DNA of 14,730 nt from Anaerolineales bacterium (GTDB lineage Bacteria > Chloroflexota > Anaerolineae > Anaerolineales > Villigracilaceae): assembly GCA_025056515.1 (NCBI GenBank), contig JANWWB010000177.1, forward strand, positions 1 through 14,730, given 5' to 3'. This document shows, one piece after another, positions 4,581-13,262 of the stretch (the first letter of the stretch is position 1; each line of letters begins with the position of its first letter). Both the position numbers and the translations under genes were made by a program. The notes under the pieces were generated by a model. That model was not told where the DNA came from, did not search any database, and was given only the letters and a program-made list of their open reading frames with translations.

Positions 4581-5891
4581 ATGAAGTCACTTATGCTTAA
4601 ACGTTTCCAACTCGGTTTAATTCATGTCGCTGTTGCGATGACGCTGGTGCCTATCAACAGCACCCTCAATCGCGTCATGATTCATGAACTGGCCATCTCG
4701 GCAGCGCTCGTCGCCTTCTTGGCCTCCTTACCTTACTTGTTCTCCCCACTCCAAATGATCATCGGGTCGTTCTCGGACCGACATCCGCTCTTCGGATTAC
4801 GCCGCACGCCCTATATTCTTTTGGGTTTGTTGCTGTGTGTAGGTGGCGTAGTTGTTTCTCCCTGGGCGGCGTATCGGTTGGCCGGAGGCGGGTTGGACGG
4901 AGTCTTAGCCGGCTGGTTGCCTTTCCTGGCCTGGGGCATGGGCTACAATCTGGCGAGCGTTTCCTATCTGGCGCTGGCCTCCGAACTAACCGGCGAACAA
5001 GGACGCGGGCGGACGATTGCCGTTATGTGGTTTATGATGATTACGAGCATCATCTTTACGGCAATTGCCATCAGCCGTATGGTGGATCCGTATACTCCCC
5101 AAGCGCTCAGGAACGCTTTTTCGGCCGTAGGTGCGATGGCGCTTTTGCTCGGAGTCCTGGGGCTTCTTGGCCTGGAGAACCGTGCCACAGCAACGATGGC
5201 TACCGTAAAACGCGAACCAAGCTTCTCTGAAATTGTCGTGGCAATTTCGAAAAACGACGTAGCTATCCGTTTCTTCATCTACCTTCTGCTCCTCTTAGCC
5301 GCTATTCTCGGACAAGATGTGTTACTAGAACCGTTCGCAGCCGAAGCCTTCGGTTGGACTGTGGCCGAGACCACGCGTCTGACCTCCTTGTGGGGAGGTT
5401 TTGTTCTCTTGGCCATCATTCTTGCAGTGGGGTTGGAACGGCGCTTCTCTCGGCGCTTTGTCGCCCAGCTGGGCAATCTGACCGCTTTCACCGGGTTCTT
5501 ACTCATCCTGATAGGTGGTGGCCTGCGTCAGAGCGGTGTCTTCTACCTAGGAGTCATCGCCTTGGGAAGCGGCACCGGCCTTTCCACGGTTTCGAATTTG
5601 GCGCTGATGTTTGACATGACTCTGCCTGGCCAAGTTGGTCTCTTTATCGGGGCTTGGGGCGTCTCGAACGCACTTTCGCGCCTGCTTGGCTCGCTCTTGG
5701 GTGGCGCTGTGCGAGATATAGTCAAAGACCTGAGCGACAACTCGATTCTTGGATATGTCACGGTCTTTGCTCTAGAGGCCGGGATGTTGCTGATTGCGGT
5801 GTTTCTCTTGACCAGGATTGATGTGACCGCTTTCCAAAAGCGTGCGCGTGATCTCTCTCCGGTTGAGCGCGCAGCTTTGGCAGTAGAGTAG
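4581..5891 (+). CDS. PucC-family (BCH) MFS membrane protein
   Basis: Twelve-helix major-facilitator-type protein of 436 residues. The N-terminal third is the best evidence: NSTLNRVMIHELAI (26-39), then PYLFSPLQMIIGSFSDRHPLFGLRRTPYI (51-79). This is the pattern of the PucC/LhaA/BCH2 family, whose studied members help assemble or deliver (bacterio)chlorophyll to light-harvesting complexes. The usual MFS motif A is replaced by the family's SDRHPLFGLRRTPYI version. No bch, puf, puc or reaction-centre gene is in the window, so the substrate is unknown and light-harvesting assembly should not be assumed. Its stop is 8 nt before obg, suggesting co-transcription. Start ATG 4581 fits the -10 at 4568-4573; ATG 4593 is an alternative. 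Confidence 0.82.
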   Translation: MKSLMLKRFQLGLIHVAVAMTLVPINSTLNRVMIHELAISAALVAFLASLPYLFSPLQMIIGSFSDRHPLFGLRRTPYILLGLLLCVGGVVVSPWAAYRLAGGGLDGVLAGWLPFLAWGMGYNLASVSYLALASELTGEQGRGRTIAVMWFMMITSIIFTAIAISRMVDPYTPQALRNAFSAVGAMALLLGVLGLLGLENRATATMATVKREPSFSEIVVAISKNDVAIRFFIYLLLLLAAILGQDVLLEPFAAEAFGWTVAETTRLTSLWGGFVLLAIILAVGLERRFSRRFVAQLGNLTAFTGFLLILIGGGLRQSGVFYLGVIALGSGTGLSTVSNLALMFDMTLPGQVGLFIGAWGVSNALSRLLGSLLGGAVRDIVKDLSDNSILGYVTVFALEAGMLLIAVFLLTRIDVTAFQKRARDLSPVERAALAVE

Positions 5892-8245: not shown

Positions 8246-9181
8246 TCAAGCCTGTGACAGGAGATTTTCTAAACGATTCATCGCTTCCTGAATAGTATTC
8301 CCCAGATACAAGCCAGCGACCAGCGCTTGCAAAGCTGGATTGACGACAAACGCACGTCCGCCAAAAGCAACGATCGGTTTTCCTCCTGCCTGAACAATCC
8401 ACCGCGGCCATTCCGATAAATGGCGTGCTGTTTCTTCTCGAATGGCTACCAGGATAACCAGGGGCGGATGAATTTGGCGCACGAAATCGGCTAAATCAGG
8501 AAAAGGAACATTCTGGCCCAGATAAGCCACCGGCCAACCCTTGCGCCGTAGCAACACCCCTAACATAAGCAGACTGCCCTCGTGCCATTCTTCCGGCGCG
8601 CAGGCGAGTACGATCGGATTGACCGGCTTCGGCGGCGGCCCGGTCACCATCCACATCAGCAGGCGGTGGCGCAGGTAGTTCGAGGCCAGATGTTCGGTGG
8701 CGACGGTAATGCGCCGCTCTTCCCACAGTCGGCCGATTTCAGCTAACGCCGGGCCGATGATCTCGGTGGTCAGAGCTTCAGGGGAGTAGAAGGCTAGCAT
8801 GTCGCCCATCATATGGTCGGCGCGTGATAGGTCGTGGCTGATGAGCGCTTCGACCAAGGCGTCGCGCAGGGAGTGCGAGGAGGTGGTCTCCGGGACAGGA
8901 CGTGCAGCAACCTCCGGCGCAGCAGGTAGGAACAAACGTCCTTCGCTCTCAAGAGCGCGCACTGCCGCAATTGCCCGACTGACGGTCATCCCCGAATCCA
9001 CCTGGGCTTTCACCCAGCGCAGACGGGCGATGTCCTTCTCCGAGTAGAGCCGATGTCCGCCGGACGTACGCGCCGACTGCGGGAATCCATAACGACGCTC
9101 CCAGGCGTGCAGGGTGGCGACCGGCACACCGGTCAGGCGGGTCACGACGCCAATGTTATAAAGAGGTTCGTCAGTCATCAT
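8246..9181 (-). CDS. carH: CarH/LitR-type MerR regulator with B12-binding photosensory domain
   Basis: Predicted light-responsive repressor. In CarH proteins adenosylcobalamin promotes a DNA-binding tetramer in the dark, and light cleaves the Co-C bond and releases DNA. The 311-residue product has an N-terminal MerR winged helix (about 8-75; YNIGVVTRLTGVPVATLHAWERRYGFP and GGHRLYSEKDIARL). A helical cap follows (about 105-180) with the conserved LWEERRITVATEHL segment (W153, E163, H164). A Rossmann-like cobalamin domain (about 188-300) carries EEWHEGSLL, with H200 at the place of the lower axial ligand. Longer upstream frames run through the predicted promoter, so I start at ATG 9181; the adjacent ATG 9178 is equally possible. 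It diverges from crtIB, the classic arrangement for light-controlled carotenogenesis. The symbol is assigned by domain and context; a B12-independent CarA-like or another B12-MerR role is possible. Confidence 0.88.
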   Translation of the reverse strand: MMTDEPLYNIGVVTRLTGVPVATLHAWERRYGFPQSARTSGGHRLYSEKDIARLRWVKAQVDSGMTVSRAIAAVRALESEGRLFLPAAPEVAARPVPETTSSHSLRDALVEALISHDLSRADHMMGDMLAFYSPEALTTEIIGPALAEIGRLWEERRITVATEHLASNYLRHRLLMWMVTGPPPKPVNPIVLACAPEEWHEGSLLMLGVLLRRKGWPVAYLGQNVPFPDLADFVRQIHPPLVILVAIREETARHLSEWPRWIVQAGGKPIVAFGGRAFVVNPALQALVAGLYLGNTIQEAMNRLENLLSQA

Positions 9182-9188
9182 CAACAAT

Positions 9189-9221
9189 TTGTCAGACGTT
9201 TCTTTGTTGTCAGACGTTTCT
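9189..9221. repeat. 18-bp-period direct repeat in the carH leader
   Basis: Two perfect 15-bp copies on the plus strand (TTGTCAGACGTTTCT at 9189-9203 and 9207-9221), separated by 3 nt. On the transcribed (minus) strand each contains CGTCTGACAA, which resembles the CCTTGACAAAA unit at the promoters. The repeat lies between the predicted carH transcription start and the carH start codon. It could be an extra operator or a leader element; a chance duplication is also possible. Confidence 0.7.
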
Positions 9222-9242
9222 CTGCGATGGCGGGCGAGTACT

Positions 9243-9271
9243 AGTGTACACGTTTGTTTGTATTTTGTCAA
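9243..9271 (-). promoter_or_regulatory. putative carH promoter
   Basis: On the minus strand: a perfect TTGACA -35 (9271-9266), a 17-nt spacer and TACACT as -10 (9248-9243, 4/6). It predicts a start near 9236 and a leader of about 55 nt containing the 18-bp-period repeat. The -35 lies in one arm of a 15-bp inverted repeat whose other arm carries the crt -35, so the two promoters are mirror images. On this strand ACA trinucleotides start at 9268, 9257 and 9247 (periods 11 and 10), suggesting autoregulation by CarH. Confidence 0.65.
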
Positions 9272-9310
9272 GGTTTACAAACAAAAACCAATACAAAACC
9301 TTGACAAAAT
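9262..9310. repeat. 15-bp perfect inverted repeat joining the two -35 boxes
   Basis: The sequence AAACCTTGACAAAAT at 9296-9310 is exactly repeated in inverse orientation at 9262-9276, with 19 nt between the arms. Each arm contains the TTGACA hexamer of one divergent promoter. A second inverted repeat overlaps it: TTTGTTTGTA (9253-9262) and TACAAACAAA (9276-9285). The two -35 hexamers are 29 nt apart, so polymerases on the two promoters would probably interfere. Confidence 0.9.
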
Positions 9311-9320
9311 CGTTACACAA
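9276..9320 (+). promoter_or_regulatory. putative CarH operator: ACA-centred repeats, 11-bp period
   Basis: Three contiguous 11-mers are visible: CCAATACAAAA (9288-9298), CCTTGACAAAA (9299-9309) and TCGTTACACAA (9310-9320). A related unit, TACAAACAAAA, lies at 9276-9286 and is offset by one base. The ACA cores start at 9281, 9293, 9304 and 9315. The middle unit supplies the crt -35 hexamer. Thermus CarH is known to bind direct repeats of this length overlapping a -35 element. Assigning this array to the adjacent CarH-like protein is inference from position and pattern. Confidence 0.7.
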
Positions 9321-9329
9321 ATCTATAAT
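9301..9329 (+). promoter_or_regulatory. crtIB promoter, consensus sigma-70 type
   Basis: Perfect TTGACA (9301-9306), a 17-nt spacer and perfect TATAAT (9324-9329), with a predicted start near 9336. This is the strongest promoter-like sequence in the window. Its -35 is covered by the 11-bp repeats, so the natural reading is a strong promoter kept off by a repressor. The leader is about 40 nt and ends with a GGAG Shine-Dalgarno (9362-9365) before ATG 9375. Confidence 0.85.
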
Positions 9330-9374: not shown

Positions 9375-11975
9375 ATGAACATTGCCATTGTCGGTGCCGG
9401 AATCGGTGGCATTGCTACAGCAGGACGCTTGGCTAAGGCCGGTCATCGTGTGATCGTGTTCGAGAAAAACGAAAAACCCGGTGGACGCGCAGCCGTCATC
9501 GAGCGCGACGGCTTCCGCTTTGATACCGGTCCGACCCTTTTTTTAATGCCGGACGTTTGGCGGGAGACTTTTTCTGCCCTCGGCGAGCGCATGGAAGATC
9601 ACTTGGAATTGATTCATCTCGACCCAACCTACCGGGTCCACTTCCATGATGGCACGCGCCTTGACTTGAGTTATCGCTTGCCGTTCATGCGCGAGCAACT
9701 TGACGCGATTGAACCTGGCTCTTTCGAGCGCTTTTTGAACTTTATGGCAGAAGGGTACAAGCACTATCAACTCTCGCTCGAAAAATTCGTCGGGCGCAAC
9801 TTTTACTCGCTGCTTGATTACTTTGCCCCGCAAAACTTACCGCTCCTCTTCCAACTCAAAGCGCTGACCAAACACGCCGCCAACACCCGCCGCTACTTCC
9901 GCGACCCGCGCCTCCTGGCGGCTTTCTCGTTCCAAAACATGTACCTCGGCCTCAGCCCCTACGACGCCCCGGCCACCTTTTCCCTGCTCCAGTACACCGA
10001 ACTCGGCGACGGCGTCTGGTTCCCGAAGGGCGGCCTCTACCGTCCCATCGAGACGCTGGCGGCGATTGCCGAGGGCCTCGGCGTCCGCTTCGAGTACGGG
10101 ACGCCGGTGCGCCGCATCCAGGTGAACGGTCGCCGCGCCGAAGGCGTCGTTCTCGAAGACGGGACGCTGGTCAAGGCCGATGTGGTCGTCGCCAACGCCG
10201 ACCTGCCCTACGTTTACGCCAACCTCCTGCCCGAGGACGGCTCGGCAGCCAAACTGATGCGAAAGAAATTCACCTCCTCGGCGCTGATGTTCTACTGGGG
10301 CGTGAAAGGCGAAAAATCGCCCGAAATTCTCCACCACAACGTCTTCCTCGCCGATAACGAGTACAAGCCGTCCTTCGACAAGATTTTCGAGGAATTGACT
10401 TTGCCGGAGACGCCCTCATTTTACGTCAATGCTCCCTCCCGCACCGACTCCTCCTTCGCTCCCGCCGATGGCGATGGGCTGATGATTCTCGTGCCGGTCG
10501 GCCACCTGGACGAAAACAAACCGCAGGACTGGGCCGCCCTGCGTGACCGCGCCCGCCGCTTCGTTATCGAGCGCCTGGAAAGCATTGGCGTCAAAGACCT
10601 GGGCCGCCGCATCCTCTTCGAGGAGACGATGGGACCGCCCGAATATCTTCGCACCCTCAACTTGGCAAAAGGCTCGGCTTTTGGCCTCAGCCACAACTTT
10701 ATGCAGGTCGGCTACCTGCGTCCGCACAACCGCCACGCCCGCTACGGCAACCTGTACTTCGCCGGGGCCAGCACCCATCCCGGCACCGGCCTGCCGATTG
10801 TCCTTCTCTCGGCTAAACTCACTACCGAACGAATCTTGAAGGAGCAAGTCTGGGACAGCTGCTATCGGTTGTCTTACCGGTATGGTAACTGCAGTGGTTG
10901 TCCTACCGACAAAGTTATGAGGCTACGCCGTGTTTTCCGTCGTCTGTTTCTCACCTTGTTTGCAGCGTTTCTCTCACCCCTCGATCGTTTTTGGAGGTAT
11001 CCGATGATTGCGCCAACGACCTTGCCCTGGGAGTCCCGCTTGCTGAGCTTGGCCCATGAAGGCGTTGAACAACTCACTCTGCCCCCGATTGCGACGCTTG
11101 ATTCGCATCTCTTAGAGCGTGCCTACCAAGCTTGTGAACAAATTACCCGCCAGCATAGCCGGACCTTTTATCTGGCTTCTGGTTTATTGCCAAAAGAGAA
11201 ACGTCAAGCGGCGCGCGCCCTCTACGCCTTCTGCCGAGTCAGCGACGACATCGTGGACCGCAGCCTGCACGGCGGGCGGCTGGATGAACTCAACGCCTGG
11301 CGCGCTCGGGCGCTCTCAGCGCATCCTTCTGATGCGGACCTGGTCGCTTTAGCCTGGGCCGATACGCGTGCTCGTTTTAGCATTCCAACCCGATACGCCG
11401 AACAACTTCTGGACGGTGTTGCCTCTGACTTGACCAAATCTCGCTATCAGACTTTTGATGAACTGGCGGCCTATGCTTATGGTGTTGCTTCAACCGTTGG
11501 CCTGATGGCGATGCACATCATCGGTTTTCGTGGCTCCGAGGCCGTTCCGTATGCCATTAAGCTGGGCGTGGCACTACAATTGACCAATATCCTGCGCGAC
11601 GTGGGTGAAGACTGGCGTAACGGCCGCCTCTACCTACCGCAAGAAGACTTGCAGCTCTTCGGCCTGTCCGAGGCCGATATCGCCGCCGGCAAGGTGACTC
11701 CTGCCTGGCGCAAGTTTATGCGTTTCCAGATTGACCGGGTGCGCCGTCTCTATGCCGAGTCCTGGCCGGGGATTGCCCTGCTCGACCCGGACGGCCGTTT
11801 TGCCATCGCTGCTGCCGCCGACCTCTACGAGGCCATCCTCGAAGACATCGAGGCGCACGATTACGATGTCTTCACCCGCCGCGCCCATCTGAGCGCTTGG
11901 GGCAAACTCCGCCGCCTCCCTGGCATCTGGCTCAAGACCCAGGCGCTGGAGGATGTCACCGTCTGGTACGAATAA
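9375..11975 (+). CDS. crtIB: fused phytoene desaturase-phytoene synthase (CrtI-CrtB)
   Basis: One uninterrupted 866-residue frame encodes two carotenoid enzymes. Residues 1-490 are a CrtI-type phytoene desaturase: FAD-binding [21 protein letters not shown] near the N-terminus, [22 protein letters not shown], and the C-terminal [21 protein letters not shown] block. Residues about 575-866 are a CrtB-type phytoene synthase. Its two Asp-rich motifs are [10 protein letters not shown] (D624, D628) and [20 protein letters not shown] (D742, D746), for head-to-head condensation of two GGPP. The linker (491-574) holds C496, CSGC and a basic/hydrophobic stretch ([19 protein letters not shown]) that could bind membrane. 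ATG 9375 is chosen over TTG 9360 because GGAG lies 9 nt before it and the Rossmann fold starts directly. An internal GGAGG-ATG at 10993-11006 could give separate CrtB. The number of desaturation steps cannot be read from the sequence. Confidence 0.93.
10993..11006 (+). promoter_or_regulatory. internal Shine-Dalgarno and in-frame ATG before the CrtB part
   Basis: GGAGG (10993-10997), 6 nt, then ATG (11004-11006), which is in frame as residue 544 of the fused protein. Initiation here would give a free phytoene synthase of 323 residues, close to the usual length of CrtB. The signal is as good as any ribosome binding site in the window, so it may be a working start or a relic of a formerly separate crtB. 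Confidence 0.65.
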
Positions 11976-12017
11976 TTCATCTATCCGTGCAAGTGGCTGT
12001 CATCTGTGGCTCACCTC

Positions 12018-13262
12018 ATGAGAAACTCCAAACTCTTCCCCCTCTTCATCGTCGTCTTCGTTGACCTGCTCGGCTTCAGCCTCATCCTGCCGCTCCTGCC
12101 CTACTACGCCGAAGAATACGGCGCGACGCCCTTCGTCACCGGCCTGCTGGTGGCCTCCTACGCCGCTGCCTCGCTCATCGGCGCGCCCATCCTCGGCCGT
12201 CTATCCGACCGGTATGGCCGCCGTCCGATTCTCTTGCTGAGCGTCTTCGGCACGCTGCTCGGCTTCCTGCTGCTCGGTTTTGCTGCCCCGCTCGGGCAGG
12301 GACTGGCGCGCCTGATCGCCCCTTCCGCGTCCAACGCTTTCGTGCTGGGCGTCCTGTTCCTCGCCCGCATCCTCGACGGGGTGACGGCAGGCAACATCAC
12401 CGTTGCCCAGGCCTACATCTCGGACGTGACCGACGAGACGAACCGGGCGCGCGGCCTGGGTCTCATCGGGGCGGCCTTCGGGCTGGGCTTCATCATCGGA
12501 CCCGCCGCCGGCGGTCTGTTGAGCAAAGCCGGTTACAGCGTCCCGGCTTTCGTCGCCGCGGGCGTGGCGATGCTCAATTTGCTGAACATCTACTTCTTCC
12601 TCCCCGAATCGCTCACCCTGGCGCGCCGCGAGGCCATCGCGCAGGTGAAACGCCCGCCCTTCACCCTGCGCGCCCTGCTGGAAGCTCTGCGCCGCCCGGG
12701 CGTCGGTCCGCTCCTGCATCTGCGCTTCTTCTACGGGATGGCCTTCGCCCTCTTCCAGAGCATCTTCTCGCTCTTCGCCCAGGCCATCCGCCTGACGCCC
12801 GACACGACCGGTTACATCCTGGCCTACGTCGGCCTGCTGTCGGTCATCGTCCAGGGCGGGCTGATGGGATGGCTGACCAAGCGCTTCCGCGAAAACAGCC
12901 TCATCATCACCGGCCTGTGGGTGATGGGACTCTCCTTCATCGGCTGGGCGCTGACCCGCGACCTGGTTACCCTGCTCATTGTCCTGCTGCCGCTGGCGGT
13001 TTCGGGCGGCGTGCTGAACACCGTCATCCAGTCGGCGCTGACCAAGTCGGTCTCGCGTGACGAACTAGGCGGCACGCTCGGACTGGCCGGGGCGCTCGAA
13101 TCCATCACTCGCGTCATCGCCCCGACAGTGGGTGGTTTCCTGCTCGACTCGCTGGGCGTCTGGGCGCCGGGCGTCTTCTCGGCGCTCCTGCTCGGCTGGT
13201 CGGTCTGGTTTGCCTATCGGCGGATTGTGCGCGTTCCGTCTCAGAGTCTTGCAGTCCCATGA
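12018..13262 (+). CDS. MFS drug/metabolite exporter, TetA-like
   Basis: Proton-driven transporter of the major facilitator superfamily, 414 residues from ATG 12018 (GTG 12006 would add four). The first helix carries VDLLGFSLILPLLPYYAEEYGA, typical of the DHA1/TetA-type group. Motif A is GRLSDRYGRRP (60-70) in the loop between helices 2 and 3, and the second half repeats the fold. ARILDGVTAGNITVAQAYISDVTDETNRARGLGLIGAAFGLGFIIGPAAGG is the usual helix 4-5 region with motif C. It begins 43 nt after crtIB with no visible promoter or terminator between, so it is probably co-transcribed. The substrate cannot be told; tetracycline resistance should not be inferred from family membership. The coding DNA is clearly GC-rich. 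Confidence 0.88.
   Translation: MRNSKLFPLFIVVFVDLLGFSLILPLLPYYAEEYGATPFVTGLLVASYAAASLIGAPILGRLSDRYGRRPILLLSVFGTLLGFLLLGFAAPLGQGLARLIAPSASNAFVLGVLFLARILDGVTAGNITVAQAYISDVTDETNRARGLGLIGAAFGLGFIIGPAAGGLLSKAGYSVPAFVAAGVAMLNLLNIYFFLPESLTLARREAIAQVKRPPFTLRALLEALRRPGVGPLLHLRFFYGMAFALFQSIFSLFAQAIRLTPDTTGYILAYVGLLSVIVQGGLMGWLTKRFRENSLIITGLWVMGLSFIGWALTRDLVTLLIVLLPLAVSGGVLNTVIQSALTKSVSRDELGGTLGLAGALESITRVIAPTVGGFLLDSLGVWAPGVFSALLLGWSVWFAYRRIVRVPSQSLAVP

Follow-up and report, generated by a model that had tools for sequence, protein, structure and literature searches.

A crtI-crtB operon of an Anaerolineales bacterium in which the crtI stop codon has probably been lost recently

Carotenoid enzymes that are fused into a single polypeptide have been described in several groups. 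The fungal CrtB-cyclase fusions (PMC2889829) join carotenoid enzymes but carry a lycopene cyclase domain and are eukaryotic. The thraustochytrid CrtIBY (PMC10016063) has CrtI before CrtB, as in the locus reported here, and it also differs by its lycopene cyclase domain and its eukaryotic origin. One of the closest described systems is bacterial. A natural crtIB fusion has been reported in Verrucomicrobiota (PMC10284914, ISME J 2023), in a paper that calls it the first report. There, crtI and crtB form one gene in PR-1 proteorhodopsin operons (Ca. Pelagisphaera phototrophica), and the fusion is distinctive of an operon group in which it lies beside a rhodopsin gene. This paper was the only account of a natural bacterial CrtIB found in the open-access literature searched, and an older mention is possible in the supplementary table of carotenoid fusion proteins belonging to PMC2889829.

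The window analysed in this work is the whole 14,730-nucleotide contig JANWWB010000177.1 of an uncultured Anaerolineales bacterium (Chloroflexota), from a metagenome bin of 442 contigs that is 83.75% complete. Positions 9375-11975 of the forward strand translate as one open frame of 866 amino acids with its sole stop at the end and a predicted mass of 98.1 kDa. The features of the locus are as follows.

8246..9271, minus strand: divergent CarH-like regulator with MerR DNA-binding and B12-binding domains, its real start probably near 9181
9262..9310, no strand: perfect 15-nt inverted repeat (arms 9262-9276 and 9296-9310), a probable operator, overlying the -35 hexamers of two divergent promoter-like sites
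9301..9329, plus strand: sigma-70 promoter-like site before crtI, TTGACA-17-TATAAT, a consensus match at 12 of 12 positions
9375..10847, plus strand: CrtI (phytoene desaturase) part, residues 1-491, ending in ...TERILKEQ, where the two nearest relatives have a stop
10848..10916, plus strand: stop-free linker of 23 codons, most likely a former intergenic spacer according to its alignment with these relatives and its codon score
10917..11003, plus strand: CrtB N-terminal extension of 29 residues with a possible start at ATG 10917, conserved in both relatives and in the database protein P0232
10993..10997, plus strand: GGAGG, probable ribosome-binding site of free CrtB, six bases before ATG 11004 and kept in relatives
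11004..11975, plus strand: CrtB (phytoene synthase), 323 amino acids from ATG 11004, identified by its Pfam match
12006..13262, plus strand: MFS transporter, 30 nt after crtB, which also adjoins crtB in the nearest relative (L029)

The family models identify a complete CrtI followed by a complete CrtB in this uninterrupted frame, which is therefore a CrtI-CrtB fusion gene as sequenced. Residues 10-488 match Pfam Amino_oxidase far over the cut-off, residues 4-491 match NCBIfam TIGR02734 crtI_fam (465 bits against a cut-off of 238.1), and residues 592-842 match SQS_PSY (PF00494; 262.4 bits against 26). The CrtB half scores below the NCBIfam equivalog cut-offs for 15-cis-phytoene synthase (NF045686: 253.6 bits against 550), so we base the name CrtB on PF00494, the neighbouring crtI and the names of database relatives. 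The translation also exhibits what we take to be the FAD-binding N-terminus, the C-terminal signature of CrtI and the Asp-rich CrtB motifs SDDIVD and RDVGED. Two family-matching domains sharing one frame are not a product of chance. In the AlphaFold model of the fusion, both domains are mostly above pLDDT 85 and residues 504-549 are below 50. The single frame through both enzymes, and the GGAGG six bases before an in-frame ATG at 11004, had been described in the original prediction made from these letters, and both were confirmed.

The original prediction also held that known fusions of this sort come from eukaryotes or differ in their composition. This is not supported, given the Verrucomicrobiota gene (PMC10284914) and the protein database searches, in which the best 120 matches of each search (from the 7,996, 8,000 and 7,998 candidates with the most shared words) gave 349 proteins. 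A CrtI match precedes a CrtB match in at least 27 of these, and both matches are substantial (CrtI of at least 180 bits, CrtB of at least 75 bits) in at least 23. The retrieved fusions are bacterial or from an unnamed environmental source, and two (P0185/P0195) are Acidobacteriota by source name. Fusions such as P0071, P0129, P0185/P0195, P0197 and P0207 have the same domain order as the window and lengths of 766-860 amino acids, except P0049 (658 amino acids, N-terminus absent). They differ from the window in sequence, being 31-45% identical in CrtI and 29-50% in CrtB, and have about 0-50 residues between the two matches. This kind of fusion is thus already known. The window differs from the Verrucomicrobiota operon group (PMC10284914) in being a single genome, in its CarH-like regulator and in its 52-residue linker that includes the conserved CrtB extension, and no rhodopsin gene was found among the genes of the window. 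The searches also returned P0002, P0003 and P0004, in which a CrtB-like domain 59-61% identical to that of the window is joined to a PF05834 domain. We take PF05834 to be a lycopene-cyclase-type domain, in which case these proteins are another carotenoid fusion.

The nearest relatives found are L029 in genome G088 (CrtI 94% and CrtB 91% identical) and L030 in genome G089 (CrtI 92%, CrtB 83%). Both have orthologous genes with the same type of regulator, operator repeat, CrtB extension and ribosome-binding site as the window, but they keep a stop between crtI and crtB. The codon directly after ...KEQ is TAA in L029 and TAG in L030. In both, 33 nt separate the stop from an in-frame ATG, after which come the 29-residue extension, a TGGAGG block and the CrtB start. 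In L030 the spacer contains another in-frame stop, TGA, and, at the crtI stop, a perfect 10-bp inverted repeat (GGCCAACTGC/GCAGTTGGCC; L030 7425-7446). Two genes with a stop at this place in close relatives were what the original prediction had named as evidence against itself, and L029 and L030 both exhibit this arrangement. Other relatives have further arrangements. In L033 of the same-genus genome G009, the two genes lie in different frames and share an ATGA overlap. In L022 of genome G001, an in-frame TGA directly precedes the TGGAGG block, and the contig reaches only 66 nt further upstream.

The wider survey covered 118 loci (121 less three copies of the window). A locus counted as adjacent crtI and crtB if its CrtI match extended beyond residue 440 and a CrtB match began no more than 1 kb further along the same strand. 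This rule gave 41 rows, or 34 distinct loci after the removal of seven repeats of the same places, and none of the 34 is fused. The desaturase is at least 60% identical to the CrtI of the window in 12 of the 34 loci, and 31-35% identical in the other 22, which are possibly of another desaturase type. A CrtB match at E <=1e-30 was present in 63 of the 152 genomes of the family, and only in the genome of the window (G000) is the CrtB frame open into CrtI. The 893-amino-acid frames of G088 and G089 arise only across stops, one (TAA) and two (TGA and TAG), respectively. Next in length among the frames with a CrtB match is one of 453 amino acids, interrupted by a TAA; the longest uninterrupted one has 381. 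Neither the 34 loci nor the 63 genomes thus reveal a fusion common to a group of genomes. No second sequence of the same species was found among the protein-database matches listed, where the highest CrtB identity is 87% among the 120 listed.

The linker aligns with the 36-nt spacer (stop included) of L029 and L030. In the window the stop is absent, and two additions, of 3 and 30 nucleotides, leave the frame intact. With -0.324 per codon, the linker has a lower codon score than any of the 188 in-frame segments of 23 codons taken from the window's genes, and its score is equalled or exceeded by 35% of 376 out-of-frame segments. Among 5,000 mononucleotide shuffles of the linker, 33% have no stop, so the absence of a stop in 23 spacer codons is unremarkable. 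Given a one-in-three chance for the frame, random replacement of such a spacer would be expected to produce a fused frame about one time in nine. The non-coding codon usage, the open shuffles and the stop in relatives together suggest that the linker is a former spacer through which translation now continues. We rejected an origin as a mobile or repeated element. Within its own genome, 10845-11003 matches nothing but itself at E <=0.001; an 86-nt query spanning the linker found, besides itself, only matches of 15-31 nt (E >=0.03) in 27 of the 151 other family genomes; and the repeat finder returned nothing there. Two near-identical 13-mers, GGTTGTC(T/C)TACCG, were seen by eye at 10867-10879 and 10896-10908, 29 nt apart. 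They are shorter than the repeat finder detects and are perhaps a trace of how the extra bases of the linker arose. The RNA fold of 10840-11010 is ordinary (z = 0.06).

The 29-residue extension and ATG 10917 were absent from the original prediction. The extension shares 22 of its 29 residues with L029, 18 with L030 and 18 with P0232. Read in the CrtB frame, the three pairs for which DNA is available give dN/dS values of 0.19, 0.21 and 0.33. In the other frames the values are 0.77-1.48 for the two pairs that include the window, and 0.33 and 3.11 for L029-L030, so the CrtB-frame signal is clear only for the two window pairs. The extension has a weak codon score (-0.056; as low in 2% of coding segments and as high in 4% of out-of-frame segments). 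Its net charge of +6 and its hydrophobic core of 13 residues make a membrane-associating N-terminus possible. Translation from ATG 10917 would give a 352-residue CrtB of 40.1 kDa, and translation from ATG 11004 a CrtB of 36.4 kDa.

A TGGAGGT(A/T)T block is kept in four of the six relatives compared (L029, L030, L058 and L022). L058 and L022 have the block without the extension, which argues for a ribosome-binding site rather than merely Trp-Arg codons. L031 and L033 have other sequences before the CrtB start and no TGGAGG block, so this start site is not universal. Eight of the ten best-scoring database CrtB proteins are 323-325 amino acids long, and P0232 and P0240 have 352 and 338; these start positions are choices of the gene caller. 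From these comparisons, the internal CrtB start at GGAGG/ATG 11004 is probably real and ancestral. The free CrtB start of the original prediction is upheld to this extent, and the products themselves are predicted.

The regulator upstream of crtI combines MerR and B12-binding domains as in the CarH type, with PF13411, PF00376 and PF02607 over the cut-off and PF02310 just under it. The operator-like inverted repeat is also present in L029 (17 nt, 100%) and L030 (15 nt, 93%). The regulator and the inverted repeat suggest CarH-like light control of crtI. No promoter-like site was found between crtI and crtB, so crtB probably relies on the crtI transcript. According to PMC8156234, known CarH proteins with bound AdoCbl block the promoter in the dark. 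CarH of Thermus is reported to use direct repeats. The likeness to CarH is partial in this respect, and the inverted arrangement of the operator here may be of interest.

The remaining genes of the contig bear on its integrity. L029 has counterparts of the CarH, crtI, crtB, MFS, hydrolase and Rieske genes in an identical order, and obgE shares a contig with the crt genes in G089 and G009. A chimaeric contig is not supported by these comparisons: the left and the right flank agree with a single relative and its gene order, so the contig is no coarse chimaera. Genus g35 (G088 and G089) has the closest relatives of the crt genes and of obgE, whereas the bin is filed in genus g1 and its gyrB is nearest to the g1 genome G007. 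This discord may reflect gene transfer, misbinning or a loose genus boundary. The control, a gene on a different contig, had matches in none of 16 genomes and is uninformative on this point. A PUCC-family transporter (4581-5891, plus strand; PF03209, 272 bits) was also observed between radA and obgE, and the name of its family presumably recalls photosystem assembly. The names gyrB, radA and obgE are those we take these genes to have from their sequences.

We consider the locus, with a probability of roughly 0.6, to be an ordinary crtI-crtB operon of Anaerolineales-like Chloroflexota, probably regulated by light and B12, in which the crtI stop was lost recently and in this lineage only. The crtI transcript would extend through crtB and perhaps into the MFS gene. 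Provided that the sequence is right, ribosomes must pass from crtI into crtB because no stop intervenes, and those translating crtI would continue through the former spacer and the CrtB extension into CrtB and give one 98-kDa polypeptide. The old GGAGG/ATG 11004 site would still yield free CrtB, and ATG 10917 may yield a longer form. We infer a correct sequence, production of both proteins, activity of both halves and a CarH-like action of the regulator. The fragmented state of the bin, and the failure to find the species a second time among the protein-database matches listed, count against this reading. What the original prediction had made of the locus stands in part. The one frame, the complete domains and the probable CrtB start are retained, the view that known fusions of this sort are of another kind is not, and the close relatives have separate genes with a stop. 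The fusion is a minor variant or possibly a sequence error.

Under an assembly or base-calling error, the organism would have two separate genes, with the crtI stop masked by an indel or a miscalled base in 10848-10916; an error within this 69-nt linker would do away with the fusion. The fusion occurs in no other examined locus, and the linker is the stretch that aligns poorly with L029 and L030. The next frame of the linker reaches a TGA at 10918-10920 that overlaps ATG 10917 as ATGA, like the overlap in the same-genus G009. That other frame, however, is not coding-like (-0.165; 1% of coding segments are as low and 13% of out-of-frame segments as high). Elsewhere in the window the long genes run without a break, which suggests a low rate of indels, and it would be unlikely for an error to fall precisely here. 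An error is held to be an unlikely explanation, although one to be taken seriously.

Two further explanations accept the sequence. A selected bifunctional enzyme would channel phytoene, use the basic-hydrophobic segment as a membrane hinge and tune the CrtB:CrtI ratio through the internal start. Fusions of the same order recur in other organisms, the hinge segment is conserved as the CrtB N-terminus in close relatives, and length changes that keep the frame relative to L029 and L030 would fit selection as well. We regard this explanation as very doubtful, since the fusion is in a single genome, its linker is non-coding-like and both nearest relatives found have the stop. No sign of selection for the fusion was found in the codon usage of the linker, which is non-coding, or among the other examined loci, where none is fused. 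A related and similarly doubtful proposal is that three products are made: a 98-kDa fusion with a conserved basic-hydrophobic membrane-binding hinge, a 40-kDa membrane-tethered CrtB started at ATG 10917 and a 36-kDa soluble CrtB started at ATG 11004. The close relatives would then have inherited the dual CrtB start from their ancestor, and through the stop loss the anchor would have become the hinge of a two-enzyme membrane complex. Slightly less probable again is a stop loss that is real but neutral or slightly harmful, with the fusion cleaved or poorly active and the pigment made by free CrtB and cleaved CrtI. The modelled pLDDT below 50 is as in disordered stretches, which are perhaps accessible to proteases, but CrtI-CrtB fusions in other organisms are presumed to be active.

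The conserved CrtB extension with its two starts offers a minor lead in its own right, as long and short CrtB may both be made. If the linker carries an error, the locus is a warning against reading fusions in single bins as biology. If the sequence is right, as the recent loss of the crtI stop requires, this is a CrtI-CrtB fusion caught at or near its birth, with the separated state kept in species more than 90% identical in CrtI. The window and its relatives would then be a clean natural pair for the effect of fusion on pigment output.
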